A DNA stretch of 44,883 nucleotides from an uncultured Erysipelotrichaceae bacterium. GTDB taxonomy: Bacteria > Bacillota_I > Bacilli_A > Erysipelotrichales > Erysipelotrichaceae. The notes beneath the pieces are model-generated. The model was given only the letters and a program-made list of their open reading frames with translations. It did no database searches and was not told where the DNA came from. The translations under genes were made by a program, and so were the position numbers. Positions 26,801-44,372 of this stretch are shown piece after piece; within the stretch, counting starts at the first letter, position 1, and the number at the start of each line of letters is the position of its first letter. Where the stretch lies: NCBI GenBank assembly GCA_949289855.1, contig CASEPS010000011.1, forward strand, positions 1 to 44,883. Direction: 5' to 3'.

Positions 26801-26848
26801 TTTATTCACCTCCGTTCTGTATACTTTCCGAACATCCGATTTCCGGAT

Positions 26849-26860: not shown

Positions 26861-26938
26861 ACCTCTGATTTTTCCGTTATTTCTCTGTATTTTTTGGATT
26901 TTTTATATTATATTTTTATCGTAAAGGAGATAAAAATA

Positions 26939-27739
26939 ATGAAAGTTATTATGTTTGGCACCCAGAAAGGTGGAGCTGCAAAAAGTTCTTCTGCTGTATG
27001 TACCGCCTGTATTCTGAACGCACTTGGTCACAAGACACTGTTTATTGATGGCGATTCACAGTGCAATGGTTCAATGCTCTTCAAAGCACATTCGGTAAAT
27101 GAAGGTTATTACAATCTTCTTGATGTGGTCTACAACAAGAGAGCAAAGCGCAGCATTAATTTTGAAGAAATTATCCAGCATTGTGAAGGAAGCGATGTGA
27201 TTACCGGAGATTCGTCTATCGTCAATAGTGGAGATGCTGTATCTGCAACTATTGATATGTGTTCTGAACAGATGAAATACAGAATTTTTGAAGATATCCG
27301 CAACCTCAATCAGTATGAATACGTAGTCATTGATACAGCACCGACCAAATCTTCTCTGCTTACTGCATTGCTGGCTATTACAGATTATATTATTTTTCCA
27401 ATCGCAGATGCAGGGTGTATTGATGGAGCGCATGTAGTTTATAGCATTGCTACTGATGTCGAGAAACATACTGGCAAAAAAATTAATGTTGCAGGATTTC
27501 TGATGACAATTGCATTGCCTACTGAGAATAATTTCAAGGATTTGTATGACGATACAGTAGCAACTGCAAATCTTTCCAAGTTTAATTCTCATGTATTCGA
27601 TACCATCATCCGAAGAAGAGCAGATTTCAAGGATGAAATCCGCAAGAATAATATTCCGGTTCTTACTTGTCGTGAATCTGACGCTTCTAAGGATTACTAC
27701 CATTTTACAAAAGAACTGCTTAAACAGATCGGAGAATAA
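26939..27739 (+). CDS. parA: ParA-type partition ATPase
   Basis: 266 residues. The deviant Walker A is QKGGAAKSSSA (about 9-19), with the ParA-specific Lys. The A' region reads FIDGDSQCNGS and motif B reads YVVIDTAPTKSSLL. It would move plasmid or element DNA during division together with the ParB gene 2 bases downstream. AAGGAGA precedes the ATG at 26939. Such a pair marks a plasmid-like or integrative element. Confidence 0.9.
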   Translation: MKVIMFGTQKGGAAKSSSAVCTACILNALGHKTLFIDGDSQCNGSMLFKAHSVNEGYYNLLDVVYNKRAKRSINFEEIIQHCEGSDVITGDSSIVNSGDAVSATIDMCSEQMKYRIFEDIRNLNQYEYVVIDTAPTKSSLLTALLAITDYIIFPIADAGCIDGAHVVYSIATDVEKHTGKKINVAGFLMTIALPTENNFKDLYDDTVATANLSKFNSHVFDTIIRRRADFKDEIRKNNIPVLTCRESDASKDYYHFTKELLKQIGE

Positions 27740-27741
27740 CA

Positions 27742-28695
27742 ATGGAAAACAACGCAATGAGATACGGTCAGTTTACTGGCACAAATGGAGATACAGAACT
27801 TTCTCCCGAAGCAATTAGAATCAGGGAAAGGAGAGAACAGCTTATGGCAGAAGCTACAGCTAACGATGAACTTGAGCACAGAACATCTGGAATTGAGTTT
27901 ATTCCGGTAGATGAGATAGAAGCTTCAAAGTTCAATGAAATCAGAGATGTAAGCGAAGACAGGATCAGAACAATTGCAGATTCTATCCGCAAAATCGGGC
28001 TTCTCAATCCGATAGTTGTATTCAAAAACGATTCTGGAAGTTACACAATTTATGGTGGACATGTCAGAACGGCTGCGTGGAAATATCTGATTTCTGTTGA
28101 TCCATCATGGCCGAGATCTATTCCATGTCGTGTATTCCCAGCACCATCTGGAGCAACCGAAAAGGAAATCGAACGTGCAGAAATGGAAATGCAGAGTCAG
28201 GCTGAAATTCATCGCTACACCAGAAAAGACGTTGAAAAAGAAGTTTTCAGAGCTGACGATCTCTGGCAGAACTATCTCACAGAAGAAGAAAAAAATCAGA
28301 AGCGGGAAGAATATCTCCAGTCGTTCAAAGAAAGAAATTCTGATAATGAAACCTACCAGGAGAATCCCGATAAATTTATCAGGGATAACTTCCGACCGAG
28401 AATTGAATACATCAGAGAGATTACTGGTATTACAGCCACTTCAGACAGAACAATCAGAAGAATGCTTAATGCAAGGTTGAAAGCAAACAATGAAGACGTG
28501 CTTGCTACTGAAGAAAAGCAGAAAGAAGAACGTATCCGGCAGAACAAGATCAGTACCAAGAAAGTTTGCAAGAAGTTTGCTCCGGTTTATGAATATGCAA
28601 AAGCATATTGTGATCAGTTTGATGCTGATGAGGATGTCAGAAGCAAGTTAGAAGAGATCATGAATCTGATTGATGAACTCAATGATATGAAGTGA
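27742..28695 (+). CDS. parB: ParB-type DNA-binding protein
   Basis: 317 residues. The ParB/Sulfiredoxin-type domain is at about 55-135: IEFIPVDEIEASKFNEIR, SIRKIGLLNPIVVF and YTIYGGHVRTAAW. In the last, GGHVR replaces the usual GEGHRR box. A helix-turn-helix region follows (about 205-245, EITGITATSDRTIRRML), and then a coiled C-terminus. No classical parS palindrome was seen nearby, so the binding site is unknown. It lies 2 bases after parA. Confidence 0.85.
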   Translation: MENNAMRYGQFTGTNGDTELSPEAIRIRERREQLMAEATANDELEHRTSGIEFIPVDEIEASKFNEIRDVSEDRIRTIADSIRKIGLLNPIVVFKNDSGSYTIYGGHVRTAAWKYLISVDPSWPRSIPCRVFPAPSGATEKEIERAEMEMQSQAEIHRYTRKDVEKEVFRADDLWQNYLTEEEKNQKREEYLQSFKERNSDNETYQENPDKFIRDNFRPRIEYIREITGITATSDRTIRRMLNARLKANNEDVLATEEKQKEERIRQNKISTKKVCKKFAPVYEYAKAYCDQFDADEDVRSKLEEIMNLIDELNDMK

Positions 28696-30342: not shown

Positions 30343-31413
30343 TCAGTCGTATTGCATGTCATTTGTATCATAATATTCTTCATTGCTGATACTGACATTT
30401 TCCATCTGGTAATCATCAATGGTAACTGATTGGCAGTCGGTAATTGAGCAATTTTCGAGTTTTGAATTTCTGATTTCGAGTTTATCAATATTTTTTATTT
30501 CTGTGTTCTTGAACTCTGTTTTATAAATATATGTATCTGGTCCGGTTAACGTGAAGTTATCGTATATACTGGCGTTTTCAATTTGTATTTGCTTATTTTT
30601 ATCTGTATTTATCTCAATCATCAGATTTATATTTCCAGACAATGCGCTTTCGTGAATCCATGTTTCATATCCTGCGTGTACATTTCCACTTAGTGTGCTG
30701 GATTCGATGCATGCATTTTCTTTTATCTCACATCTGTCTTTGATGACTGAATCAGTTACTTCTGCTTTGTTACAGATGATTGCATTTCCTGAAACTCTAC
30801 TTTCTCCATCAACCGTTGCATCATCTTTAATTATTGCATCTTCTGATATTTCTGATTTCCCACCTACGACTGCGTTATCTATGATTTTGGCATTTCCGAT
30901 TACTACAGCGTTATCATGAACCCATGATGTACCATTATGATCAAGATTATACTCTGATTCTACGTAACCGCCAAGATCACCAGGATACACATATCTGCTA
31001 TACAACCCTTCCAGAAGCGCACCAAGAATTGGCTGCATAGGGTTACCAATATATGTTAATGCCCGGATACGGTAAAGCTTGTGCCCGTTTCTTGTTATGC
31101 TGTCTTCTTTTACAAGCTCATATTTCTTCCCGGTCTGCAAGCCTTTAGTATAGTATTTTTTCTTTTTGCTTGATTCATCTTCAATGACTCCAAGTTCATC
31201 ATCGTACTTTACATCACAGATGATATGCCCTTCATATACTCTGTAATTACATTTTTGAAAATGACTGTATGTTACCGGCACTTCATATTTACTGAGTTTT
31301 CCATCGTTCACAGCTTTTTCAAATAATGATTCGGGAATTACGTTTACACAATATTCCTTGGTGTCACTGGTGACACAGAGATGGGCAAGAATATATTCTT
31401 CTGATACGTTCAT
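30343..31413 (-). CDS. YdcK-like beta-helix protein, copy 1
   Basis: 356 residues. An N-terminal part of about 95 residues is unlike the other copies. Next comes the family hallmark KLYRIRALTYIG and YPGDLGGYVESEYNLD (about 120-160). A long run of hexapeptide-like repeats follows (about 160-350, for example DNAVVGGKSEISEDAIIKDD), predicted to wind into a left-handed beta-helix. Relatives occur in phages and bacteria; their function is not established. AAAGGAG precedes the ATG. Single-gene cassette with its own promoter and terminator. Two paralogs lie further right. Confidence 0.8.
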   Translation of the reverse strand: MNVSEEYILAHLCVTSDTKEYCVNVIPESLFEKAVNDGKLSKYEVPVTYSHFQKCNYRVYEGHIICDVKYDDELGVIEDESSKKKKYYTKGLQTGKKYELVKEDSITRNGHKLYRIRALTYIGNPMQPILGALLEGLYSRYVYPGDLGGYVESEYNLDHNGTSWVHDNAVVIGNAKIIDNAVVGGKSEISEDAIIKDDATVDGESRVSGNAIICNKAEVTDSVIKDRCEIKENACIESSTLSGNVHAGYETWIHESALSGNINLMIEINTDKNKQIQIENASIYDNFTLTGPDTYIYKTEFKNTEIKNIDKLEIRNSKLENCSITDCQSVTIDDYQMENVSISNEEYYDTNDMQYD

Positions 31414-31563: not shown

Positions 31564-31704
31564 CATTCCAACAGGTTTGAACCCGTCCCTGATTCATGTT
31601 TACCCCGTTTCAACAGGTTTAGCTAATCATCATTCCCGTTCCAACAGGTCTGGTGCGTTAGATTTCCTGAAATGACGATAGATTTGTTTCCGTTTAAATA
31701 GGTT
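31564..31704. repeat. Cluster of the 15-bp motif, plus orientation
   Basis: Three good copies and one decayed copy of CATTCCAACAGGTTT: 31564, 31607, 31638 and 31690. All point right and lie upstream of the promoter of the first beta-helix gene. Confidence 0.8.
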
Positions 31705-31769
31705 TGTCCAGCATCCCTGTTTTGACTAGTCTTTCCAGAATACTGGTTTGCCGAATCCAGAAATATGAA

Positions 31770-31862
31770 TTTCACACTTCAAGAGATGTAGAAATCACAC
31801 TTCAAGACATGTGAATATCGCATTTCAAGAAGTGTGAATATCATGTTTCAAGAGGTGTGAAA
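31770..31862. repeat. Four tandem 23-bp repeats with internal dyad
   Basis: TTCAAG recurs at 31778, 31801, 31824 and 31847, exactly 23 bases apart. Each unit is close to CACACTTC-AAG-A-GTGTG, so each is a dyad. Such iterated dyads usually bind a protein. Confidence 0.8.
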
Positions 31863-31955
31863 TCCGGACTTCTGAAATACCACTGGCTGTTTTGATGATT
31901 GCTTGCGTAAATAACATGAGCAGGACAATAAAAGTGTCCTTCACCCCGGATATAA

Positions 31956-31982
31956 TGAAAAGAACCCGGTTTCCCGGATTCT
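31956..31982 (-). terminator. Terminator of the 290-residue gene
   Basis: GAATCCGG and CCGGGTTC pair around a short loop and are followed leftward by TTTTC. Confidence 0.65.
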
Positions 31983-32019
31983 CTTCACTATCATATTCGG
32001 ACTTTATTTCCAATTTCAA

Positions 32020-32892
32020 TCAGCCCCTGCGTTTTGTAAGACACTTGATCGGAGCAGGTTCCTGGTTTTCACTCCTTATTACTTCAATTCTGTTTTTGAT
32101 GCATTTTGCATACGAGATGGCATCACGGTCATTCCTGCTTTCCATGTGTCTGATGATAATATCTGTCAGCTGGTTAATGCTGTCCAGCAGGATATCTGTT
32201 TCCTGCGCCGGATAGACAGTACATTCCTTACCAGGCAAATCACCGTATGATTCCTGGCTGTTGTATATAGTGCTGTACATTCTGATAATTGCACCAAGTT
32301 CTTCGTTTGTAGGATTTTGTTTGAACGTGAAGGCAAGATCATCGCCATCCGGATAGCTGATGGATACATTGTCATACGGAATAGTGCTGTTATCTTTGAA
32401 GATACAGTTTTTCCAGATCCGGTATGCTGCATCATACGCCGTGCGGAAGTCTGGATATGTACCTTCTATCTCTACGTTTTCCTTGCCATAGTTATAGACT
32501 ACTACCCAGTGCGTATGCCTTCTTATGATTGCTTTAGTGATCTTTGTTACCATTGCATCGAATTCTTCTTCTGTCTGACTGTCCATGTAGCCGGCGATCA
32601 GTGACGTGCAATCTATATAGCGTTTTACATAGGTGTACGCCGGCTTGATGATGTCGCTTTCGCTATAGAACCGTGCTTCTGTACACTTGCCAAACTCATC
32701 ATAATAGACACAGCAGGCTTCTCCCTTATGCCTTCTGAAGTTCTCTGCTATGTATCTTTCAAACGCTTCTTCTACGCTTTGGCGGATCTTCACTTCTGGC
32801 AGCATCTCTTCTTTGATTGCTTCATCTGTTTCCATGGCCAACTCAAGATCCCAGAGACTGAATTCCTCTTCACAACTCAGCAAGATTCTCAT
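32020..32892 (-). CDS. Uncharacterised soluble protein, single cassette
   Basis: 290 residues, acidic, without signal peptide or membrane helix. I do not recognise a family. The middle part (RRHTHWVVVYNYGKENVEIE, about 127-146, followed by FRTAYDAAYRIWKNC) resembles in pattern the middle of the 226-residue cassette protein at 33824-34504: strand-rich segment, then an aromatic helix. AAAGGAGGG lies 8 bases before the ATG at 32892. It has its own promoter box and terminator, so it is a one-gene cassette. Confidence 0.65.
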   Translation of the reverse strand: MRILLSCEEEFSLWDLELAMETDEAIKEEMLPEVKIRQSVEEAFERYIAENFRRHKGEACCVYYDEFGKCTEARFYSESDIIKPAYTYVKRYIDCTSLIAGYMDSQTEEEFDAMVTKITKAIIRRHTHWVVVYNYGKENVEIEGTYPDFRTAYDAAYRIWKNCIFKDNSTIPYDNVSISYPDGDDLAFTFKQNPTNEELGAIIRMYSTIYNSQESYGDLPGKECTVYPAQETDILLDSINQLTDIIIRHMESRNDRDAISYAKCIKNRIEVIRSENQEPAPIKCLTKRRG

Positions 32893-32984
32893 GATTTTTC
32901 CCTCCTTTTTTCTATCTCCTGTAAGAACAGTATATAAATTTATGAATTGTGTTTGCTGGATTTTATCAGGTTTTTGCATTGTAT

Positions 32985-33000
32985 ATTATACTAACTTTAA
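32985..33000 (-). promoter_or_regulatory. Cassette promoter
   Basis: TTAAAGTTAGTATAAT read leftward, with CTCCCC about 20 bases further upstream where a -35 would lie. Confidence 0.75.
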
Positions 33001-33027
33001 TCATGTGGCAGGGGAGAGGGAGACCTC

Positions 33028-33087
33028 ATTTGCATTGAAATAAACTGAAATGCATTCAGATCAACTCAAATGCATTCAAATCAACTG
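33028..33087. repeat. Three tandem 20-bp repeats
   Basis: TGCATT recurs at 33031, 33051 and 33071, exactly 20 bases apart, in units close to TGCATTCAAATCAACTCAAA. They lie just upstream of the cassette promoter for 32892. Confidence 0.8.
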
Positions 33088-33198
33088 TTATCTGAAAAAT
33101 GAAAAAATGTAACAAAACTGATGATGGCGATAAAAATTCTGAATCTTATATGCATTTTGACAGGAATTATTCAGTTGAAAATGATTGGTATCCACTCT

Positions 33199-33446
33199 AA
33201 TTCCAACAGGTTTAACCTGTAACCAGATGCTTCAGACCTCTGTGAATCCTGGCTTAATTTATACTTCAACAGCTTATGCTGCAAAAAAGCAGGCACCTGG
33301 AAATTCTGCCTCTTTTTCCTGAAATCAGGTAAAATCATTCCAACTGGTGTGACGCGGAGCTGGTTCCAGGGAAACCTGTTGGAATAAAAAATGTGGTCAG
33401 GATATAGGCGGATGACATGGGCAGCCGGGAATAAACCTGTTGGAAT
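33199..33446. repeat. Cluster of the 15-bp motif, both orientations
   Basis: Plus copies at 33199 and 33336 and minus copies (AAACCTGTTGGAAT) at 33371 and 33432. The 33336/33371 pair faces inward across 20 bases. Lies between two cassettes. Confidence 0.8.
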
Positions 33447-33461
33447 AAATGGGGTGTTTAT

Positions 33462-33491
33462 AAAAAAAGAATAACGAGTTAACGCTATTCT
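33462..33491 (-). terminator. Terminator of the five-gene cassette
   Basis: AGAATAGCG and CGTTATTCT pair, followed leftward by TTTTTTT, overlapping the stop of the small membrane gene. Confidence 0.75.
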
Positions 33492-33808
33492 TTTGTCTGA
33501 TTTTTGTGTGGGTCTTCAATAAAATATTTGCATGCCAGAAGGCCAGCACTGATAGAAAGTAGTGGCAAAAGGACATAGATCGCATCAAGTAGAAGTTGAA
33601 TGATTTTTATATTATACGGTGTTGCAGTTTCCAACATATTTTTTAATACTTCATTTGCAATAAGCATTATGACTATCAATGGGATAGATAAAATAAGGAC
33701 TGTTTTATCCCATGCAGCACGATGGGCTTTATATACTTTATACAATAATGGAATAATAGCTATTGTTCCAATTACAATCATTGATGACATAAACATGGTG
33801 ACAGACAT
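33485..33808 (-). CDS. Small membrane protein
   Basis: 107 residues with three hydrophobic helices (about 5-22, 36-52 and 72-92) and a charged tail. Family not recognised; size and topology are holin-like, but no lysis gene is near, so that is only a possibility. GAAAGGAGG precedes the ATG. It lies 15 bases after the 226-residue gene, as last gene of the cassette operon. Confidence 0.65.
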   Translation of the reverse strand: MSVTMFMSSMIVIGTIAIIPLLYKVYKAHRAAWDKTVLILSIPLIVIMLIANEVLKNMLETATPYNIKIIQLLLDAIYVLLPLLSISAGLLACKYFIEDPHKNQTKE

Positions 33809-33823
33809 ATTTTATTCCTCCTT

Positions 33824-34504
33824 TCACCATTCCGTGATACTGATTCCAAGAATTTCTTCTGCTCGTTTAATCGTTTTCATTTCTTCCTCTAACGTCACAA
33901 CAGACATAGGCTCACAGAGTTCTGGGTCAAAGTCAGGTTCAACCTTTTCGGCAAACACACAGAATTTTCTCAGCCAGTGGTGGGCAAATCCATGTTTTTC
34001 ATTAACTAGATACTCTATCTGCAGGATTTTTGCCACCTCATCAACGTTGCAGTCTCTTTTGAATACACAGTATTCGTCATGTGATTCGCTGATTCCGGCA
34101 ACCACATATTCGCTTTTGTTATATTTTTCTCTTTCGTAGTTTAAAGTATCAGTTCTCCATCGCTCAAAAGCATTGATGAATGCCATCTCTAATGTATAAC
34201 AGCGATATTCGCATACAGTTTCGTTTTCTTCGATAATATAACATGCATATGGTGTTTTGATACATTCAGCACATTCCATGTATTCTTCTTCAAGATCTTC
34301 ACCTTCCAGAGTTTCAAAATAATCTTCTGGCCACAGATCTGGGTAGACATATCTGCACACTTCAACCATTTTCTGACTGTCAGCCGGTTCATGATTTTCC
34401 AAGGCAGCATCCAGTTCTTCGACCATCCTGTACATCCTTTGATATTCTTTAGTGGTGCGGATGGCGTTCAGTTTCTTTTCGAGTTCGGTAATCATTGGTT
34501 CCAT
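33824..34504 (-). CDS. Uncharacterised cassette protein
   Basis: 226 residues, acidic, soluble. The N-terminus (ITELEKKLNAIRTTKEYQRM) is shared with the broken gene at 38161-38967 (LTELEIKLHSIRTTEEYQKM), so the two have a common short helical head attached to different bodies. The middle holds Cys-rich segments (CAECIKTPYACYIIEENETV). No known domain recognised. AAAGGAG precedes the ATG at 34504. It lies in the operon that begins at 36014. Confidence 0.65.
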   Translation of the reverse strand: MEPMITELEKKLNAIRTTKEYQRMYRMVEELDAALENHEPADSQKMVEVCRYVYPDLWPEDYFETLEGEDLEEEYMECAECIKTPYACYIIEENETVCEYRCYTLEMAFINAFERWRTDTLNYEREKYNKSEYVVAGISESHDEYCVFKRDCNVDEVAKILQIEYLVNEKHGFAHHWLRKFCVFAEKVEPDFDPELCEPMSVVTLEEEMKTIKRAEEILGISITEW

Positions 34505-34522
34505 TGTTCTTTTTCTCCTTTT

Positions 34523-35339
34523 TTAGTCTGGTATCAATTCGTAACACGGGACTTTATCAACGTTTTCGTTTTCAAGCTCCTGCTCATAGAGATTAACTGT
34601 TGTGTAATTTGTTATATTGCATTGTTTTAGACTTGTATATTCAATCTGCAAATTCTTAATATCTTTAATTACACAATCAGTCAGTCTAGATTTCTTGATT
34701 TCTGTTAATTCATTGATGTTGCTGATATTTACATTTTGCAAAACTGCCTGTGATATATCAGCATATGTGTTTGTGATAGCAATGTTACCTACCAGTACAC
34801 TATGGGCAATCCATGTCCTGTTTCCAAGATACACATTTTCTTTGAGCTGGGTATGGGATATTGCTGCGGATTGATCTAGATTGATCTAGTATGCAGAAAT
34901 CATCTATAGTCGATCTGTCCAATACAACTGAATCTCCGCATACTACTGCGTTGCCTTTGACAATGCACCCGCCATCTACTATTGCATGTCCTGCAATTAT
35001 GGCGTTATCCAGTATCACTGAATTCCCGCTAACAACTGCATTGTTCTGTACCCGTGCATTACCCATTACAATAGACGTGTCATATACCCAGCTGTTTCCT
35101 TGCTGATCAAGATTTGCTTCTGATTCGATATATCCACCAAGATCCTCCGGATGAACCATCTGCTTATGCAGATTTGGATATGGATCGTTCGGGTCAGCTG
35201 GTTCACCAAAATGCGCCAATGCTCTGATACGATACAGCTTCTTCCCATCACGTTTTATACAATCATCTTGTTCAAGTTCGTATTTCTTGCCTGTTTTCAG
35301 ATGTTTTTCGTAGTATTTTTTGATTGGCTTTTCAGTCAT
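34523..35339 (-). pseudogene. YdcK-like beta-helix gene, copy 2, frameshifted
   Basis: The first part encodes KKLYRIRALAHFGEP and HPEDLGGYIESEANLDQQG, then hexapeptide repeats, as in the intact copies. At 34870-34889 the ten bases ATTGATCTAG occur twice in tandem. Removing one copy restores a continuous frame into the second part (34523-34834, starting KENVYLGNRTWI), which matches the other copies. As it stands the frame ends early with an unrelated tail. The start at 35339 overlaps the 90-residue gene by 8 bases. It could be a recent mutation or a switch by tandem slippage. Confidence 0.85.
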
Positions 35340-35604
35340 ATTCTTCTTCCATTCTTTCAGCAATTGCATCTGCAATTTCCTGCATCGTCATATGCTTTGT
35401 AGTATTCATGATTTTGATGACGTCCGGATCATCGTATCTGGTCCATGAGTTCTGACCAATGCTGATTTGTGTGACTGCCCATACAAAGCCCATTTTCTTG
35501 TTGTAGAACAATTCGACATAACCACAGCTTCTTGCATCCCAGTTAACGGTTTCTTTTGAAGCTTTCTTGATTCCTCCCATATGCAATCCATGTGTATTCA
35601 GCAT
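35332..35604 (-). CDS. Small uncharacterised cassette protein
   Basis: 90 residues, soluble, mixed charge, with an aromatic centre (CGYVELFYNKKMGFVWAV) and an acidic helical C-terminus (MQEIADAIAERMEEEYD). No family recognised. AAAAGGAG precedes the start. It overlaps the preceding gene by 7 bases and the following one by 8, so it is tightly coupled in the operon. Confidence 0.65.
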   Translation of the reverse strand: MLNTHGLHMGGIKKASKETVNWDARSCGYVELFYNKKMGFVWAVTQISIGQNSWTRYDDPDVIKIMNTTKHMTMQEIADAIAERMEEEYD

Positions 35605-36014
35605 GTTATATTCTCCTTTTCTCTCATTTTTTGCTCTTCTTGTACAACTCTGTTGATTTCTTCAACATATTTGATGGCGCATCTTGCTATTGTTTCTGGC
35701 AATATATCTCCAAGTGATGTCCATTCGCTGTATACAATGCCATTTTCAATGAAGATCTTTTCACCACGATAGCCACTGCTGTTAGATGTAGTTATTCTTT
35801 CTCCATTTTCATCCGTGTATTGGCACTGCCTTATCATTCCAGAAGATTTGTAGCAACAGACACCAAGATTGATGATCTGTCCCAATCCGTATCTGTCAAA
35901 GTAGTATCTTTTTACTTTCGTCTTTGGATTAATCCACGGTTTTACAAGCTGTTCTTCCACAAGCATTTTTACCTGTTTGTCTGTTATTCTTGTATCTGAG
36001 AGATAATATCTCAT
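35598..36014 (-). CDS. RYYLSDT-family cassette protein, copy 1
   Basis: 138 residues. It starts MRYYLSDTRITDKQVKMLV and continues with a conserved strand pattern: NPKTKVKRYYFDRYGLGQII, CQYTDENGER, a basic GYRGEKIFIENGIVYSEWT segment, then a helical tail. Two further copies lie at 38951 and 39688. Function unknown; I do not recognise it from named families. GAAAGGAAA precedes the ATG, the same leader arrangement as in the second copy. It is first in a five-gene operon. Confidence 0.7.
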   Translation of the reverse strand: MRYYLSDTRITDKQVKMLVEEQLVKPWINPKTKVKRYYFDRYGLGQIINLGVCCYKSSGMIRQCQYTDENGERITTSNSSGYRGEKIFIENGIVYSEWTSLGDILPETIARCAIKYVEEINRVVQEEQKMREKENITC

Positions 36015-36048
36015 AACCAGTATTTCCTTTCTTTATAAGCTTTTACAA

Positions 36049-36165
36049 CTGCTTGTTGTTTACACCTATATTATAGCTTAGTCAAGCGGTTTTTGCTATC
36101 TTTTATTTACTTGTTTTTCGCTATTTTTAGCTGTTTTTTGACATAGTATTATACTAACTTTATTC
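36049..36165 (-). promoter_or_regulatory. Cassette promoter module with second -10 and 5' UTR hairpin
   Basis: Read leftward, TTGAATAAAGTTAGTATAAT (distal box, ending at 36148) is followed about 75 bases on by a second -10 (TATAAT in AGCTATAATATAGG). A small hairpin (ACAAC with GTTGT) follows. The same order recurs before 37408, 39352 and 40521. Confidence 0.7.
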
Positions 36166-36205
36166 AACGGAAAAGGGGGAGTGGTACTTGCTAAAAACTT
36201 CAATC

Positions 36206-36320
36206 TAATTCAACAGGTTTCATCTGGACTCATCTTCTTCAGGACTTGGATTTACCCTTATTCCAACTGGTTTGCCAGCTTCTGTCCCCGCAGCACGCCT
36301 CACCAAAACCTGTTGGAATG
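36206..36320. repeat. Cluster of the 15-bp motif
   Basis: Plus copies at 36206 and 36258 and a minus copy at 36305. The last two face inward across 31 bases. It fills the gap between two cassettes. Confidence 0.8.
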
Positions 36321-36338
36321 CAATAGCTGCCCGCCAAC

Positions 36339-36363
36339 AAAAAAAAAAGTCATAATCAGACTT
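36339..36363 (-). terminator. Terminator of YdcK copy 3
   Basis: AAGTC and GACTT pair and are followed leftward by ten T residues. Confidence 0.7.
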
Positions 36364-37408
36364 CCTTTCCTGGTTCAAAAATCTTCTGATTTCCGATGAG
36401 CTTGTGCTCGATAGTGCAGCCGGTTATGTCAGCATAATCGGAATCGTACAATTTGAAGTTTTGCAGAACAGAATCGACTATCTCAATACTTCTGACCCGT
36501 GTGATTTCAGTGTTTTCCAGAATTGTGCCAAAACCCTCGAGTTTTATGAAGTTTTCAATGTTCACGTAGTTACATCCAGTAATGTTGGAATTGTATAATA
36601 ACGAATTAGATATTTCTATCTCGTTGTTATCCGACAATTTTACGAATTCAAGATGTGATTTGTTAATTTCCAAGGATTCTATATTTTCTAAGGTGATGTC
36701 TTTAATTTTGGAATTTGCTATTGCGTTTGTATAAACATTTTTGATTATTACTTTTCCTGTCAGTGTTGAGCCTTCTATTCTGCATTCATTCTTGTTTTCT
36801 TCGTATTCTTTCAATATTTCTATATCACCATCAAGTGTACTGTATATTGCCCATGCGCAGTATCCCAGATTAACATTCTTACGCAGCGTGCTTCGTACTG
36901 CCGATGAATTCAATTCAAGAACGCAATTATCAGTAATGGTTGATTTATCTAATACTCTTGCATATCCGCCGATGACAGCATTTCCGGTTATCATGCAACC
37001 ATCATCAACAATTGCTCTGTTTTTCACAATGGCATTGCCCTGGATCAGGGAATTACCGCCAACGACTGCATCATCCATTATCCGTGCATTTTCGGCAACT
37101 ATTGTACTGTCATAGACCCAGCACTTTCCTTTTTGATCGAGGTTTGCTTCTGATTCAATATAGCCACCGAGATCCCCTGGATTAACCCACTTGTTACGAA
37201 GATCTGTTGAACACAGCAATGGAGCAACCGGGTCGCCAAGATATTGCAGCGATCTTATTCTGTGCAGCTTCTTGCCACCAATTTCTAACGTATCGTCTTC
37301 AACGATTTCGTATTTTTTGCCAAGTGTTTTCCCTTTTTCGTAGTACATTTTCTTTTTGTCTTCTGCTTGTTCAAGCTTTTTGAAGATATCTGATTTTGTT
37401 ACGTTCAT
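36356..37408 (-). CDS. YdcK-like beta-helix protein, copy 3
   Basis: 350 residues. Head with charged helices, then the hallmark KLHRIRSLQYLGDP and NPGDLGGYIESEANLDQKG (about 53-100). Hexapeptide-like repeats run to near the C-terminus (DDAVVGGNSLIQGNAIVKNR and later leucine- and asparagine-rich strands). It is the intact relative of the frameshifted copy 2 and shares less with copy 1. GGGAGGTG lies 5 bases before the ATG at 37408; the frame further upstream lacks a site. One-gene cassette. Confidence 0.8.
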   Translation of the reverse strand: MNVTKSDIFKKLEQAEDKKKMYYEKGKTLGKKYEIVEDDTLEIGGKKLHRIRSLQYLGDPVAPLLCSTDLRNKWVNPGDLGGYIESEANLDQKGKCWVYDSTIVAENARIMDDAVVGGNSLIQGNAIVKNRAIVDDGCMITGNAVIGGYARVLDKSTITDNCVLELNSSAVRSTLRKNVNLGYCAWAIYSTLDGDIEILKEYEENKNECRIEGSTLTGKVIIKNVYTNAIANSKIKDITLENIESLEINKSHLEFVKLSDNNEIEISNSLLYNSNITGCNYVNIENFIKLEGFGTILENTEITRVRSIEIVDSVLQNFKLYDSDYADITGCTIEHKLIGNQKIFEPGKEV

Positions 37409-37440
37409 ATTCACCTCCCGATTCAATATATTTTCATCTT

Positions 37441-37563
37441 TACAACCGTCTGTTGTTTACACCTATATTATAGCTTATTCAAGCAGTATTTAACATCTTT
37501 TATTTACTCGTTTTTCGCTATTTTTAACTGTTTTTTTTCTATTATATTATACTAACTTTATTC
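37441..37563 (-). promoter_or_regulatory. Cassette promoter module of YdcK copy 3
   Basis: GAATAAAGTTAGTATAAT (ending at 37546), then AGCTATAATATAGG, then the ACAAC/GTTGT hairpin, in the same order and spacing as before 36014. Confidence 0.75.
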
Positions 37564-37659
37564 AGTTCGAAAAAGGGTGGGCAAAACAACAATTTGCATG
37601 TTGAGTTAATATCAGATGACTGCGTGTACATAGAGTATGACCAGCTGCGCACTCACCCC

Positions 37660-37815
37660 CATTCCAACAGGTTTATTAGATGAAATTCAGGTTCAAAACT
37701 CATTCCAACGGGTTTGGAGTGGTGATTCAGGAGCTTGAAACAACCAGTAAACCTGTTGAAATGGAATTTTATGACTCAGGCAGGTAATTAAATAGAGGTT
37801 AAACCTGTTGGAATG
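37660..37815. repeat. Cluster of the 15-bp motif
   Basis: Plus copies at 37660 and 37701, minus copies at 37749 and 37801. The 37701/37749 pair faces inward across 33 bases. Confidence 0.85.
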
Positions 37816-37859
37816 GGAGCGGGTTTGTGTGCCAAGAAAATCCTTTTGTCTACTGCTTA

Positions 37860-38102
37860 TCACTGATCTTTATTCTTCTTCCTTTCAGAAGGCAACGATT
37901 TCAACACGTCTATCCAATTGACATGCACAATATCACAGTATCTCTTGAATACATCCACGTCTATTGGATTCCGCCCGATTTCCCAGTAGTACACTGCCAC
38001 ATCACTTACTCCCAGTTGTGAAGCAATATTTACTCTTGTTATGTGGGCTTTCTTTCTGGCTAGTAATAAAGCACTTCCTATTTCCTCTCTGATTTCTGTC
38101 AT
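37860..38102 (-). CDS. Cro/CI-type HTH regulator
   Basis: 80 residues. A lambda-repressor-like helix-turn-helix spans about 10-60: LLLARKKAHITRVNIASQLG, VSDVAVYYWEIGRNPIDVDV. It has no extra domain, so it resembles small Cro-type regulators. It has its own promoter and AGAGG just before the ATG. It is a candidate regulator of the shared cassette promoter, which is inference. Confidence 0.85.
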   Translation of the reverse strand: MTEIREEIGSALLLARKKAHITRVNIASQLGVSDVAVYYWEIGRNPIDVDVFKRYCDIVHVNWIDVLKSLPSERKKNKDQ

Positions 38103-38113
38103 ATAGTCCTCTA

Positions 38114-38141
38114 TTTATACTTAGAATAGCAGAATTTACAA
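38114..38141 (-). promoter_or_regulatory. Promoter of the HTH gene
   Basis: TTGTAA and TATAAA with a 16-base spacer read leftward, ending about 12 bases before the ATG, so the untranslated leader is very short. Confidence 0.65.
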
Positions 38142-38168
38142 CATGAAAAAGAAGCCTTGTTCAGACTT
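38141..38168 (-). terminator. Weak terminator after the broken cassette gene
   Basis: GAAG pairs with CTTC around a longer loop and is followed leftward by TTTTTC. Confidence 0.45.
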
Positions 38169-38967
38169 CCTCTCTGAAAAACATGAAATTGTCGTAATCC
38201 CTTTTTGCACCTTTGAATCTCAACTCGTTTTCAGCATATGCATTTTGCTTGTCTCTCATCACCAAATAGGGAGCTTTGTACCCGTATGCACCGGCACCAC
38301 CGGTGAGGATGTTGTTGATGGACCAGGTGTCGCCATCTCTGCCGTTGTTGATGATCAGCCATACGCAGTCTTCTGATACACGGATGATTCTTCCTCCACC
38401 ATAAATGTCGAAGGTATCATAAATATCTTTTCCGGGAATATCAGACAGATTGATGCTTTCACCTTTATATTGATTTTCAGTAGTGCTGATAGCTTTTTCA
38501 AGATCTTTCAGTGCTTTCTGCATATCTGCTTCTGCTTCTTTTACCATTCTTCTCAACAGTTTTTCCTCGCAATAGTCTACCATGATCTTTTTGCCACGAT
38601 CTGTTTCGGAAAGATCTTTTGCTTTGACCCAATACCATTCTTCTGAGCCAGCCCCGAAAGAAAAGCCATCTGAATCGTGGTAAAAACTGGAAACAACCAT
38701 ATACGGGATATCGTCTTTCTCAAATGTATGTCCACGCACTGGCTTACCAGCAAAACCACCTTCAGCCGGGAAGGCAAATGTTTTGTAGTTCTTGTTCTCT
38801 TCTTCCTGCTTTCATCTTTTCTTTTCGGCTATCATTCTGCTTCGATCTGGATTGATGTCCTTTTCAATCTTTTCGTCCAGTTCTTCTACCAGCTTGTACA
38901 TTTTCTGATATTCCTCTGTTGTCCGGATGGAATGAAGTTTAATTTCGAGTTCAGTTAATGGTCTCAT
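38161..38967 (-). pseudogene. Cassette gene split by an in-frame TGA
   Basis: The first 51 codons (LTELEIKLHSIRTTEEYQKM...) end at a TGA at 38812-38814. The same frame then continues at once with KQEEENKNYKTFAFPAEGG and about 190 more residues, with no other stop until 38161. There is no good start for the second part: its first candidate is a GTG at 38739 without a ribosome site. The simplest reading is one gene of about 268 codons broken by a single nonsense change. The head is shared with the gene at 33824-34504; the body (WYWVKAKDLSETDRGKK, VSEDCVWLIINNGRDGD) is not recognised. It overlaps the RYYLSDT gene by 17 bases. Confidence 0.8.
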
Positions 38968-39352
38968 TTTCTGTTTCCTTTCTATTAATATAATTATCAG
39001 TGTATTTGACAGCACATCTGCATATTGTCTCCGCCACAGCACTGCCAGGCGTAGTCCAGGCACTGTACACCGTTCCATTTTCAATGAATATCTTCTGATG
39101 CCGGTAGCCACGTCTTATGGATGTTGCCACATTGTTTCCGTCTTCGTCTGTATACTGACATTGCTTTATCATTCCATGAGGTGTATACAAAACAACACGT
39201 TTCAGATCTATGATCTGTCTTAACCCATCAATTCCGAAGTAATATCGTTTTGTTTTTGTTCTTGGATTGACATATGGATATATCATCGCCTTATCAACAA
39301 GCATCTGTACCTGCTCATCTGTTATTTTTGTGCCTGACAGATAATATTTCAT
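38951..39352 (-). CDS. RYYLSDT-family cassette protein, copy 2
   Basis: 133 residues starting MKYYLSGTKITDEQVQMLV and continuing NPRTKTKRYYFGIDGLRQII, CQYTDEDGNN, HQKIFIENGTVYSAWTTPGS. It is close to copy 1 throughout. The start at 39352 was chosen because copy 1 has the same GAAAGGAAA leader but ATA where an upstream ATG occurs here. Function unknown. It begins an operon with the split gene downstream. Confidence 0.72.
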   Translation of the reverse strand: MKYYLSGTKITDEQVQMLVDKAMIYPYVNPRTKTKRYYFGIDGLRQIIDLKRVVLYTPHGMIKQCQYTDEDGNNVATSIRRGYRHQKIFIENGTVYSAWTTPGSAVAETICRCAVKYTDNYINRKETENETIN

Positions 39353-39381
39353 AACCAGCATTTTCCTTTCTTTGCAGACAG

Positions 39382-39503
39382 TTACAACTGTCTGTTGTAT
39401 GCATTTATATTATAGCGTATTTATGCGTATTTGCTACATTTATGTTGCTGTTTTTCATTATTTTTAACGAGTTTTTCAGTATTGTATTATACTAACTTTA
39501 TTC
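39382..39503 (-). promoter_or_regulatory. Cassette promoter module of RYYLSDT copy 2
   Basis: GAATAAAGTTAGTATAAT (ending at 39486), then CGCTATAATATA, then ACAAC/GTTGT, matching the other modules. CTCCCC lies about 20 bases upstream of the -10. Confidence 0.75.
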
Positions 39504-39624
39504 TGTGAAGAGGGGAGAAGTATATATGAATTCGCATACACCAACAGGCTCGTCTCAGATAGCCAGCTGATGATCCTGCAGTCGGATTGCATTATGCCGG
39601 GCATCAAGTCATAAAATCATGATA
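39504..39624. other. Short spacer with a decayed 15-bp motif
   Basis: Only a remnant of the motif (CACCAACAGGCT, near 39540) is seen between this promoter and the next cassette's terminator. No gene. Confidence 0.5.
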
Positions 39625-39650
39625 AGAAAAACCAGGATGTTATTCCTGGT
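39625..39650 (-). terminator. Terminator of RYYLSDT copy 3
   Basis: ACCAGG and CCTGGT pair around an 8-base loop and are followed leftward by TTTTTC. Confidence 0.8.
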
Positions 39651-39687
39651 CATCTATATATTCTTCCCAAGTGTCTATGATTGCTTC

Positions 39688-40521
39688 TTATTTCAGACTA
39701 TCCCAATAGTCCTGAATAGTTGCTTTGTATTCTTCTTCATACTTTTTCATGTTAGGTTCAATGACACCCATCTCTCTTATTTTATGATTCATTTTTTTGT
39801 AATATAGGAAGCCATCTGAGAACCAGATGTCATCACCTTGAATTTCAATATATGTATAATGGCCAGCTTTATAGATAATAATCTTTTCGGCTTTAATAAA
39901 GGATTCAACTACATTATCATTAAGAATCAGAATTTTAGCATTATCAAATTCTAATTCTTTCTTATATTCATTTTTGAAAGCATTTTTGCCGATTTTGATA
40001 TATGCGGGATAATATTCATTATATGCGCATACATTTTCAAACATCAAATAGCTTATTTTTCGTATAATCTGTCCATTTTTCTCTTCGACAGAATAGACAC
40101 GCAAATAATCATCCACGCAGATGCCAAGGAACAAGCTTTTGGAATCCTCGTATTCTTCCTCTTCTTTTTTAACGTAATCTATAGAGCGGTTTGCGATGGT
40201 TTCTGCTATAGCACTTCCAGGATTAGTCCATGCGCTGTATATAATGCCATTTTCAATGAATATGTTCAGATGGCGATGACCACGTTTGACAAAAGTAATT
40301 ACCTTATCTCCATTTTCATCAAAATACTGACATTTTCTGTATTGTTTAGATAAATTGATTGGCCAGAAATGCAGATCAATGATCTCTCTAAGTCCGTAGT
40401 TGGTGAAATAATAACGTTTTACATTTGTCTTTGGATTTATCTGTTGTCTTATCACCTGGTGGTCGACAAGTATATGTATTTGTTCTTCTGTCAGCTTAGT
40501 GTCTGATTTGTAGTATCTCAT
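39688..40521 (-). CDS. RYYLSDT-family protein, copy 3, with extra domain
   Basis: 277 residues. The first 125 match the shorter copies (MRYYKSDTKLTEEQIHILV, NPKTNVKRYYFTNYGLREII, LNIFIENGIIYSAWTNPGS). The added C-terminal 150 residues are strand-rich and aromatic (SLFLGICVDDYLRVYSVEE, ILILNDNVVESFIKAEKIII) and are not recognised. The ribosome site is 17 bases away, but a 5-codon frame (MVTAV, ATG at 40535) begins there and its TGA overlaps this start, so translation is probably coupled. One-gene cassette. Confidence 0.72.
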   Translation of the reverse strand: MRYYKSDTKLTEEQIHILVDHQVIRQQINPKTNVKRYYFTNYGLREIIDLHFWPINLSKQYRKCQYFDENGDKVITFVKRGHRHLNIFIENGIIYSAWTNPGSAIAETIANRSIDYVKKEEEEYEDSKSLFLGICVDDYLRVYSVEEKNGQIIRKISYLMFENVCAYNEYYPAYIKIGKNAFKNEYKKELEFDNAKILILNDNVVESFIKAEKIIIYKAGHYTYIEIQGDDIWFSDGFLYYKKMNHKIREMGVIEPNMKKYEEEYKATIQDYWDSLK

Positions 40522-40603
40522 ACCGCTGTTACCATTTATACCCTTTCTTTTTCTGATTCAATTCAGCATTGAATTTTCTTTATATATCGTTAATTTGTGA
40601 CAT

Positions 40604-40723
40604 ACAACTGTCTGTTGCTTACGTGTATAATATAGCATAATCAAGCTGCTTTTTCTATGTATAAAATGCATTTTCTTATTAATTTTAATGACTTTTTATC
40701 AATGTATTATACTAACTTTATTT
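40604..40723 (-). promoter_or_regulatory. Cassette promoter module of RYYLSDT copy 3
   Basis: AATAAAGTTAGTATAAT (ending at 40706), a second -10-like TATATTATAC region and a GCAAC/GTTGT-type hairpin. CTCCCC lies about 19 bases upstream of the -10. Confidence 0.7.
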
Positions 40724-40800
40724 GCGACTAGGGGAGGGATGTATATGTTTTACCTATGCCTCTGAAGCCTGCATTTTGCAGTGAGAGCTGCTGGAATGAA

Positions 40801-40833
40801 AAAAAAACAGGCACTTATGTATTTAGTACCTGT
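40801..40833 (-). terminator. Terminator of CRISPR transcript 1
   Basis: ACAGGTACT pairs with AGTGCCTGT, with a run of T after it in the leftward direction. It lies 47 bases beyond the leader-distal repeat. Confidence 0.8.
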
Positions 40834-40879
40834 CAGCAATCTTCACATTTAATTTTCTTTTCTTTTTGCAGCTGCTTGT

Positions 40880-41151
40880 CTGTTATCCCTACATACGTGG
40901 GTTAAATGAAATCATGAATTCTGCTGGAGCGGATGAATTCACTGTTATTCCCACATATGTGAGTTAAACTGTGTGTCCTTAGTGTGACAACAAAGATCTC
41001 CTGTTATCCCCACATGCGTGGGTTAAACTTTTTATTCATCAGAATCTCAGCGATCAGATCCCTGTTATCCCCAAATGCGTGGGTTAAACTACGGATGTAA
41101 GCGTCAACTGTTTTAGGTTTACACTGTTATCCCCAAATGCGTGGGTTAAAC
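40880..41151 (-). CRISPR. CRISPR array 1, type I-E-like, 5 repeats
   Basis: Five 28-bp repeats start at 40880, 40942, 41001, 41062 and 41124. The spacers are 34, 31, 33 and 34 bases. In the leftward sense the repeat begins GTTTAACCCACGCA, has the hairpin CCCACGCATGTGGG and ends GGGGATAACAG, closely like type I-E repeats. The leftmost repeats are the most diverged, which marks that side as leader-distal. The conserved flank on the right is the leader. No cas genes occur in the window, so the array relies on genes elsewhere or is inactive. Confidence 0.88.
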
Positions 41152-41301
41152 ACTAAATCACGCGTTTTCTCCACGTATGGGTGTATCTGCATTGACCAAC
41201 ATCTAAACCGAGATGATGTCGCTTGCAGATATTTTGTTTGTATCAATACACGTCATGCGTATTAACGATACTGGCTGATAACTTTGCCTGTTACTATTAT
41301 A
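41152..41301 (-). ncRNA. Structured leader of CRISPR array 1
   Basis: About 140 bases between an extended -10 (TGATATAAT at 41296-41304) and the first repeat. Two stem-loops are visible: one at 41240-41271 (GTATC/GATAC outer, AATACGC/GTGTATT inner, loop ATGAC) and one at 41185-41230 (ATCTGCA/TGCAGAT outer, CATCT/AGATG inner). Both are present in the leader of array 2 with compensatory changes. Confidence 0.8.
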
Positions 41302-41320
41302 TCATTTTTTACTCGAAAAC

Positions 41321-41349
41321 TTGCTCCTGATTTGTTTTCTTATTATTAT
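41321..41349 (+). promoter_or_regulatory. Rightward promoter into motif block A
   Basis: TTGCTC and TATTAT with 17 bases between them, back-to-back with the CRISPR leader promoter. The same arrangement recurs at array 2. Confidence 0.55.
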
Positions 41350-41373
41350 AATTTCTTTTCCGTTTTTTTGCTA

Positions 41374-41820
41374 TCGACTGCCATTAGAGCGGCAGAGGCA
41401 CTCCTTTCATTCCAACGGGTTTGGAGCTGGGCAATTGTAGTCGAGATTATTTAGGAAATATCTGGAGAAGTTTGATTAACCCGTTTCAACAGGTTTGAAA
41501 GGTATTTAACGCCTGATTTTAACTTATGAAACCTGTTGGAATGAATTAAATGTGCATCAGGAGAGCTGGTAAAGCTGTTGGAATGAGATTTTTCAGACTC
41601 AGGTGGATATTCAAGCATAGGTAAAATCTGTTGGAATGAGATTAAGTATAAACTTGTCGCGTTTTGGCGCCTAAAAGATATGCTGGTGATGCTGTTGAGA
41701 TGAGGCATGATATTAGTTTGGATCTGAGTTTTTCCGTTTCAACAGGTTTAAGCTGCAAAACAGTAATACTTCAGTAACACTTAGTTGAGAATCTCATAAA
41801 ATTTGAAACCTGTTGAAATG
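41374..41820. repeat. Motif block A
   Basis: Begins with the header CGACTGCCATTAGAG. 15-bp motif copies: plus at 41408, 41481, 41734; minus at 41529, 41570, 41622, 41805; a decayed copy at about 41689. The pair 41481/41529 faces inward across 32 bases. Reading frames here cross the repeats and lack ribosome sites; no gene is credited. Confidence 0.85.
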
Positions 41821-41973
41821 TGGCCTTGCCACTCAGAATGCTGAAGGAGTGCAGCTGACAAGATGCAAATTCATTATTTTTCACTATTTTTCTCTAAATA
41901 CAGATCAATTGCGAATTTGATTTGTTCTGTACCAGCTGCGAAAAGATGCAGGATATCCTTGCTGCAAGATAAG

Positions 41974-42447
41974 CTGTTCCAACAGGTTTCGTATAGGAGG
42001 AGCTGCTTCAGTTTATGCATTCCAACAGGTTTAAGCTGGTGTGCAGCGGGTGCATATTCAGAAAACAGCTGGCTTTCAGGAGAAAGTATAATCAGGGAAA
42101 CATTGCTGACCTGATCTAGATCTGACTTTTTTCATTTCAACGGGTTTGGGATACATCCGACGCGGTATCCGAACTAGTGAACCTGTTGAAATAAGAAAAA
42201 ATGATGTGCTGGAAACAATCGGGAACAATTAGAGAAACTCCATTAACTCATTCCAACAGGTTTGAAACGACTCAGGTGCCTGCTTTTTTCGACAAAACCT
42301 GTTGGAATGGGAATTTGTACAAATCTGATCTGGTAAGGAGAAACTGGTGAAACAAAGGTGCCTTTGTAAAAGTGGATAAAATGGATTTTATAATAAGTTT
42401 GTCGTATTTTGGTGACTATCTCAGATGCTGGTAAACCTGTTGGAATG
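41974..42447. repeat. Motif block B
   Basis: Plus copies at 41974, 42018, 42133 and 42249; minus at 42179, 42294 and 42432. The two inward pairs (42133/42179 and 42249/42294) have 31- and 30-base interiors. Confidence 0.85.
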
Positions 42448-42690
42448 AAACAGGACCCAGGTTTTATCTAGTTGTTGTAAATACAGCTGACATAATACGC
42501 ATGTCAGCATGGATAACAGCTGTAGTTCGGATCTACCGTATGTGACCACTTTGTTAACTGACGAACTTTTCTGATGTACATTCAGCAGATTCTTGGTTCT
42601 TTTCCTGGTTTATTTCGATCTTATTATCTGGTCTTTAAGTTAACTATGACCGGCTGCCATGAGGGAGGAAGTGCACGTAGTCAAAGCTGC
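42448..42690. other. Spacer between motif blocks B and C
   Basis: No gene. Contains a perfect 8-bp hairpin (GCTGACAT/ATGTCAGC, about 42487-42510) and, before block C, an AT-rich stretch ending GTTAACTATGACCGGCTGCC, the block header. Confidence 0.5.
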
Positions 42691-42908
42691 CATTTCAACG
42701 GGTTTCGCAGATGACTGCAGCGGGTTCTGTGCTGGTAAAGCTGTTGGAGCAAGAAGAGTGATGTATTGCACAGGAGTAGGGCTGTTTAGAAAAGCTCCAT
42801 TCATTCATTTCAACAGGTTTAACCTGGATCAGGGATAAATGAAACCTGTTGGAATGAAAAAATATAACTGGCGTCTTGCTCAGGTGAGCTGGCAAACCTG
42901 TTGGAACG
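42691..42908. repeat. Motif block C
   Basis: Plus copies at 42691 and 42806; minus at 42735, 42841 and 42893. The 42806/42841 pair has a 20-base interior. Confidence 0.85.
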
Positions 42909-42921
42909 AATTGATAAAGAA

Positions 42922-42950
42922 ACAAAAAAGGCACATTCTGCGTTGTGCCT
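42922..42950 (-). terminator. Terminator of CRISPR transcript 2
   Basis: AGGCAC and GTGCCT pair around a 10-base loop, followed leftward by TTTTTTG, 24 bases beyond the last repeat. Confidence 0.8.
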
Positions 42951-42973
42951 GATAAACGATTTATTTTTGCTTT

Positions 42974-43246
42974 CCGTTATTCCCGTATGCGTTGGTTCAC
43001 CGTGAAGGTGAATCAACTCTAAATTTCCAACCATCCTGTTATTCCTACATGCGTGGGTTAAACAATATGCTTGTCCATAAATTGGTTTACACTTACCTGT
43101 TATCCCCACATATGTGGGTTTTACGATCAATCGTTTGATACGAGCACCCATTTTTCCCTGTTATCCCCACATATGTGAGTTTTACGGAAGCCCATTTTTG
43201 GTGACATTCACTTTGATCCTGTTATCCCCACATATGTGGGTTTTAC
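42974..43246 (-). CRISPR. CRISPR array 2, type I-E-like, 5 repeats
   Basis: Five 28-bp repeats start at 42974, 43036, 43097, 43158 and 43219, with spacers of 34, 33, 33 and 33 bases, a regular 61-62-base period. The three right-hand repeats are nearly identical (GTAAAACCCACATATGTGG in the leftward sense) and the leftmost is decayed, again placing the leader on the right. The repeat differs slightly from array 1. No spacer is shared with array 1. Confidence 0.9.
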
Positions 43247-43396
43247 ACTAAACCATGAGCTTTATCCACGTATGTGTGTATCTGCATTGACCAATGTTTA
43301 AACTGAAACAATGTCGTTTGCAGATATTTTGTTTGTATCAATGCACGTCATGCGCATTAGCGATACTGGCCGATAACTTAGCCTGTAGATATTATA
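43247..43396 (-). ncRNA. Structured leader of CRISPR array 2
   Basis: Aligns along its length with the leader of array 1. -10 TATAAT at 43391-43396 in TGATATAAT. Stem-loop 1 at 43335-43366 (GTATC/GATAC, AATGCGC/GTGCATT, loop ATGAC). Stem-loop 2 at 43280-43325 (ATCTGCA/TGCAGAT, TGTTT/AAACA). Confidence 0.8.
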
Positions 43397-43430
43397 TCAT
43401 TTTCACCGGTTGTTTCATGTGTGCTTTCTA

Positions 43431-43460
43431 TTGTTCTTAGCATTAACATTCTAATATTAT
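43431..43460 (+). promoter_or_regulatory. Rightward promoter into motif block D
   Basis: TTGTTC and TATTAT with 18 bases between them, at the same place relative to the leader as the promoter before block A. Confidence 0.5.
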
Positions 43461-43469
43461 AGGTTTCAA

Positions 43470-43784
43470 AAGAACGACTGCTATGAGGAAGAAACATTAG
43501 TAGACAAATCTGTCATTTCAACAGGTTTGCTGCGGATTACCATAAGTAGAAACAAAAATGTCAAAAGTAGAAACAGAATTTCCATAAGTAGAAACAGGAT
43601 GGTTTCTGGAAAAATGTTTGAGAGATAGTGATTGACAGTGCGAATTGTGCTGGAAATCCTGTTGGTAGAAGGAAAATGATGTCCCGGAAACAATCGGGAA
43701 CAACTAGAGTAACTCCAATAACTCATTCCAACAGGTTTAAGCTGGCGTGCAGCGGGATCTGGATTTATTAATCCTGTTGAAATG
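43470..43784. repeat. Motif block D
   Basis: Begins with header CGACTGCTATGAGG. Plus copies at 43514 and 43724; minus at 43653 (decayed) and 43769. The 43724/43769 pair has a 30-base interior. Confidence 0.8.
43541..43600. repeat. Three tandem 21-bp repeats
   Basis: AAGTAGAAACA recurs at 43544, 43565 and 43586, exactly 21 bases apart, inside block D. Confidence 0.75.
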
Positions 43785-44079
43785 AAATAACATTGATCCT
43801 GACTGCTAACACAAATATTTCTGATCTGATGAACTCAGGTTAAGTGATATATGTGTCATCGAAACCTGGTTATTTTCATTGCTGCAGCTGGCACTGGAAT
43901 CATACATTTTACTTTTCGGAATTTGTTTTCGTTATATTTCTCTGTTTTATCAATCAAAGAGGTTAATCAAGATAAATAGCAGCTGACAGGATTAATGGTT
44001 TTTTGTTTCTTTAATTCATACATCCTGGGTTAACTTATGACGACTGCCAATGGGCAGAGGCATGGATTCGAGCTGATTT
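43785..44079. other. Spacer before motif block E
   Basis: No gene seen. AT-rich, ending with the header GTTAACTTATGACGACTGCC that also precedes block C in similar form. Confidence 0.5.
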
Positions 44080-44372
44080 CATTCCAACAGGTTCAACGCG
44101 TTCCCGGATCAGAGTTTTTTCATTCCAACGGGTTTGAAACGTAAAAAGTAACACTTCGGTAACGCTTTGATTTGGATCGGAATAAATGAAACCTGTTGAA
44201 ATGAGAATGATGCCTCAATGAAACCTGTTGGAACGGAAATAATAGTGAATTTTATCTGGAAAAGTCAGGAACGGAACCAGGTTGTCGTATTCTGATGAAA
44301 TATTTAAACCTGTTGGAACAGGATCGGACCAGGATCTGGAGCTTGATTTGTGCAGCCAAACCTGTTGGAATG
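44080..44372. repeat. Motif block E
   Basis: Plus copies at 44080 and 44121; minus at 44188, 44219, 44304 and 44356. The 44121/44188 pair has a 52-base interior that matches the interior of 41734/41805. Confidence 0.85.

Follow-up and report, generated by a model that had tools for sequence, protein, structure and literature searches.

The window, i.e., the whole stretch of 44,883 nucleotides that was analysed, contains two small CRISPR arrays, each headed by a leader (minus strand; 41153-41306 and 43248-43401), and these leaders share a predicted fold of two hairpins in which both partners of several base pairs differ and still pair. The shared fold and its compensatory changes are real, and selection for a pair of RNA hairpins is the best reading of this promising two-sequence case. 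The explanation put forward, at roughly even odds (a probability of about 0.5), is that an integrated mobile element carries a related pair of orphan CRISPR RNA genes, whose leader RNA has a two-hairpin fold that is kept by selection and would aid the accumulation of the precursor.

The two leaders can be aligned without gaps over 154 columns, of which 22 (14% of positions) differ. In the predicted folds, stem-loop 1 is located at 41240-41271 in leader 1 and at 43335-43366 in leader 2, and stem-loop 2 at 41184-41231 and 43279-43326, respectively, all on the minus strand. Compensatory changes in both hairpins had been claimed in the initial annotation and were reproduced: among the 28 base pairs, 24 are unchanged, four are changed on both sides and none is broken. 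The single A-U to G-C change described for stem-loop 1 was recovered, as were the three double changes of stem-loop 2, namely C-G to U-A, A-U to G-C and C-G to U-A. The loops, read from the predicted folds as AUGAC and CGGUUU/CAGUUU, had been called constant as well, which is incorrect for stem-loop 2, where column 98 in the loop differs between the leaders, as do columns 42 and 85, which are unpaired. The hairpin region (88 nt) holds 11 of the 22 differences, eight of which form the four compensated pairs, with the other three unpaired. All eight paired changes are transitions, compared with 8 of the 14 unpaired changes (Fisher P 0.04), which fits with passage through G-U intermediates. Three of the four compensations fall within one 5-bp helix, so the number of independent events may be as low as two, and the whole case for compensation is one comparison between two copies in one genome.

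The role of chance was assessed with a null model in which the fold is predicted from one leader alone and the real substitutions are placed randomly on matching bases. With the fold of leader 2, four compensations were obtained in 19 of 300,000 random placements for the hairpin region (P 6e-5) and in 10 of 20,000 for the whole leader. The fold of leader 1 gives two compensations and weak support (P about 0.05), because this leader prefers a rival inner stem: its named inner stem of stem-loop 2 has pair probabilities of about 0.3, and a rival 7-bp stem is better by 0.8 kcal/mol. These P values are somewhat generous, since the case itself had been selected in a search for patterns by the initial reader. 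Five other diverged repeat pairs within the window served as controls, and most of them show zero or one compensation. The exceptions are the plus strands of D7 (four compensations) and D1a (three), each of which also has 10-11 broken pairs and, with 47-48 differences, about twice the divergence of the leaders.

The units are organized in the same way on the minus strand, with the predicted extended -10 promoter element TGATATAAT followed by the leader, an array of five repeats and four spacers, and an intrinsic terminator. In unit 1, the promoter element is located at 41296-41304, array 1 at 40881-41152 and the terminator, recognized as ACAGGTAC..GTGCCTGT and then a T run, at 40800-40834; in unit 2, the promoter element, array 2 and the terminator are found at 43391-43399, 42975-43247 and 42929-42950, respectively. 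The distal repeats of both arrays are degenerate, and homology between the units extends from about the -10 element to the end of the first repeat. The likely promoter is positioned 5' of both hairpins, which are followed by 31 bases up to the array, and a transcription start downstream of the two stem-loops is not what the sequence suggests. Judged from these signals, each cas-less unit is equipped with a separate terminator and a separate promoter in the leader, and looks like a complete RNA gene. A plus-strand orientation of the arrays could also be envisaged, given a nearly palindromic repeat whose plus strand is I-E-repeat-like too; it was rejected because the minus strand is indicated consistently by the promoter, the leader homology, the degenerate end and the terminators. 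In leader 1, another hairpin is predicted beside the first repeat, and it is absent from the fold of leader 2. None of the curated covariance models of Rfam matched over either leader, and no boxA motif was seen by eye in the leader RNA.

Both arrays look like CRISPR arrays and resemble the I-E type. The repeats of both units are 28-29 nt long, palindromic and I-E-like, with a spacing of about 61 nt, and the spacers (31-34 nt) are all different. By eye, the repeats are similar, though not identical, to those of I-E arrays near Cse1 in the same family, and the leader-repeat junction (TTTAGT|GT) resembles that of I-E relatives, with similar junctions also present in some family members. A search through 84,980 species for sequences identical to the repeat core found none. 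In the host genome, which is 96% complete, Cas1, Cse1 and Cas6e gave no match, and a PNPase gene is present. No credible protospacers for the arrays were found in phages or plasmids, and the two spacers tried in viral contigs gave none; a match to Pseudomonas phages (E 0.08) was treated as chance, and spacer matches to the window itself were not clearly above those of shuffled spacers. The leader is not shared by eight cas-linked I-E arrays of the same family, whose upstream 150 nt are mostly coding and fold unusually well in one case of the eight. This indicates that a structured leader is not a general property of CRISPR leaders, nor a family trait of I-E arrays. The one array with an unusually well-folding upstream 150 nt (L056/L057 in genome G072) has a z of about -2.9 on both strands, and this region is largely coding.

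The conservation of the fold between the leaders suggests that the shape of the RNA may matter, and there are further hints that RNA is the constrained molecule. On the presumed transcribed strand, folding is better than in shuffled sequences, with z-scores of -2.5 and -3.3 in comparison with -1.5 and -0.9 for the other strand, the paired changes are exclusively transitions and a likely promoter is just upstream. The RNA-fold interpretation of the initial annotation is supported in part: the fold is on the presumed transcribed strand behind a likely promoter and heads arrays that are CRISPR-like, but it is known from two copies in one genome, a third leader was not found in the collections searched and the fold is not general to CRISPR leaders.

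The palindromes may instead work as DNA, either as sites bound by a protein that is dimeric or bends DNA, or as a cruciform for spacer integration or for the recombinase or partition system of the element, with the RNA fold as a by-product. This is a serious, though unlikely, alternative. Sense and antisense strands show the compensation equally well, as expected of any palindrome, and the random-placement test does not tell them apart; the element is rich in other inverted repeats, and CRISPR leaders are known to carry DNA integration motifs (PMC5382924, PMC6895254). However, a sequence that is bound would be expected to retain its bases, while the inner stems keep their pairing only. The stretch from the hairpins to the first repeat, which is closest to the point of spacer insertion and in which an integration site should show the strongest conservation, moreover, is not the most conserved part, as 6 of its 31 positions differ against 11 of 88 in the hairpin region, and a Cas1-Cas2 docking site is therefore not indicated as the main constraint. 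The poorer folding of the non-transcribed strand relative to shuffles and the failure to find Cas1 in the genome also argue against a role as DNA.

Under the favoured explanation, transcription of the minus strand from the extended -10 promoter would produce an RNA of roughly 450-490 nt, composed of a leader of about 137 nt, the array with its five I-E-like repeats and four spacers, and the intrinsic terminator. The leader RNA would form its two hairpins close behind the 5' end, and the fold, beyond the sequence alone, would have been under selection since the divergence of the two copies. Its most likely job would be to let the untranslated precursor accumulate, with the hairpins guarding the 5' end from decay or sustaining elongation by the polymerase. 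For the production and use of the crRNAs, the units would then depend on Cas proteins in trans or on housekeeping RNases. In Gram-positive bacteria, hairpins at the 5' end also guard transcripts against 5' exonucleases. Given this protection and the parallels with RliB-CRISPR, PhrS/Rho and LoaP, the hairpins are proposed to act in the stability or elongation of the precursor.

RliB-CRISPR of Listeria appears to be the nearest known relative in kind. It is never linked to cas genes, has five repeats and four spacers, a leader promoter and a terminator hairpin, is processed by PNPase and can use Cas proteins in trans (PMC3886909). It shares with the units described here the cas-less array, the numbers of repeats and spacers, an own promoter and terminator and a Gram-positive host. 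In contrast, RliB has another repeat, a 29-mer that is weakly palindromic, its structure arises from the repeats and spacers and it is a conserved Listeria locus, which was not matched here, whereas the present units have I-E-like palindromic repeats, occur as two paralogous copies on a putative mobile element and have hairpins in the leader itself. Short cas-less arrays are also known from other mobile elements, as mini-CRISPR arrays of viruses and orphan arrays of plasmids, and perhaps use Cas proteins of the host (PMC6858448, PMC9071438, PMC8616872). However, viral mini-arrays usually have one spacer and repeats copied from complete arrays of the host, while a matching host array was not found for the units studied here. 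Control of CRISPR transcription via the leader RNA is described, in sections of PMC6700203, for the PhrS sRNA, which is set against Rho at type I-F leaders of Pseudomonas. The likeness is that the leader RNA, beyond its DNA, sets the amount of precursor; the difference is that PhrS acts through base pairing of an sRNA, and those sections describe no intramolecular fold with compensatory changes. In Bacillota, a hairpin in the 5' leader RNA sets up transcript elongation in LoaP antitermination (PMC12691694). LoaP recognizes hairpins of the UNCG type, and neither of the loops found here is of that type.

Further leaders were searched for with BLAST in the genus (70 genomes) and with a covariance model in the family (273), the order (316) and a phylum sample (392), sets that overlap, and exact leader patterns were also sought in collections of viral sequences and genomes. 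Beyond the two known copies, no leader turned up in any of these sets, nor in phages, plasmids or viral contigs. The BLAST and covariance-model searches yielded the two known leaders and three weak matches. The match in G153 (E 0.048) was dropped, as its stems are deleted, it is inside an apparent ABC-transporter gene and no array is nearby, and that in G129 (E 0.7), found among ordinary genes with many broken pairs and no array nearby, was dropped as well. The match in G624 (E 0.075) is weak and covers only 90 bases of the 154-position model. The pattern matches L026-L042 gave no model match worth keeping.

The same stretch as the CRISPR units contains genes for a large serine recombinase (25508-26809) and for ParA- and ParB-like proteins (26894-28695), and one protein of the stretch has no relatives among 268 genomes of the family. 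Together, these features make it likely that the CRISPR units are located on an integrated mobile element. The ends of this putative element were not found, and neither was a sister element when relatives of its proteins were searched for. It is conceivable, although doubtful, that the units belong to a new lineage of mobile CRISPR RNA genes without cas genes, with the two-hairpin leader as a dedicated RNA element that controls their elongation, stability or processing.

Multiple other repeated features have been observed in this stretch. Around 40 copies of AAACCTGTTGRAATG are present at 31564-44372, and 34 of the 36 copies in the genome (at most one mismatch) are in this stretch. In most clusters, minus-strand copies precede plus-strand copies, resulting in nested long hairpins between transcription units that resemble the boundary elements of a cassette array. 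A block with TATTATACTAACTTTATT or a near variant occurs in six copies (31451, 32959, 36122, 37520, 39460 and 40680) upstream of minus-strand ORFs; these blocks are promoter-like and spread across the element, and four of the regions share a short ACAAC..GTTGT-like inverted repeat. Two paralogous protein families are present, i.e., hexapeptide/beta-helix-like proteins (30343-31413, 34800-35375 and 36356-37426) and proteins starting with MRYY (35598-36014, 38951-39361 and 39688-40521), the latter with no relatives in the family of the host. Adjoining leader 2, three tandem 21-nt units around CATAAGTAGAAACA are located at 43541-43603. In addition, a noncoding module consisting of GACTGCCAT..G and then a copy of CATTYCAACRGGTTT is present in four diverged copies (41309-41430, 42580-42715, 43404-43540 and 43975-44100), two of which are directly upstream of the CRISPR units.

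The units could also be decaying remnants, with arrays left behind after the loss of cas genes and a leader without present function. This reading is improbable. It would account for the cas genes that were not found, the degenerate repeats, the short arrays and the spacers without matches, but both promoters, leader folds and terminators are intact despite 14% divergence of the leaders. Template switching within a palindrome, by which one arm is copied from the other, could produce several matching changes in few events without selection for a fold, and the clustering of three of the four compensations in one 5-bp stem would be expected from it. It is nevertheless quite improbable, as either three of the five pairs would have to be mismatched in the ancestor or the events would have to be repeated, the paired changes are all transitions and the separate change in stem-loop 1 requires another event.

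Both leaders contain an ORF of 17 codons that begins at the AUG in the stem-loop 1 loop (MTCIDTNKISASDIISV at 41203-41256 and MTCIDTNKISANDIVSV at 43298-43351, minus strand) and ends with TAG/TAA. Five of its seven changes are at third positions (about P 0.045, binomial), a pattern that could be due to chance or to an additional constraint. That this leader peptide is the conserved feature, and that its third-position changes merely look structural, is very improbable even with the open frame, the kept stop and the third-position changes, given that no Shine-Dalgarno sequence or other ribosome-binding site was seen for the ORF, the start codon is within a hairpin loop and the in-step changes of partners outside the frame (columns 47, 106 and 107) are left unexplained.

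The paired leader copies make the two-hairpin fold directly testable. Work on CRISPR leaders has mainly addressed their DNA; should the RNA fold prove necessary, it would represent a way in which cas-less mobile arrays keep an untranslated guide precursor alive, and a further example beside RliB.
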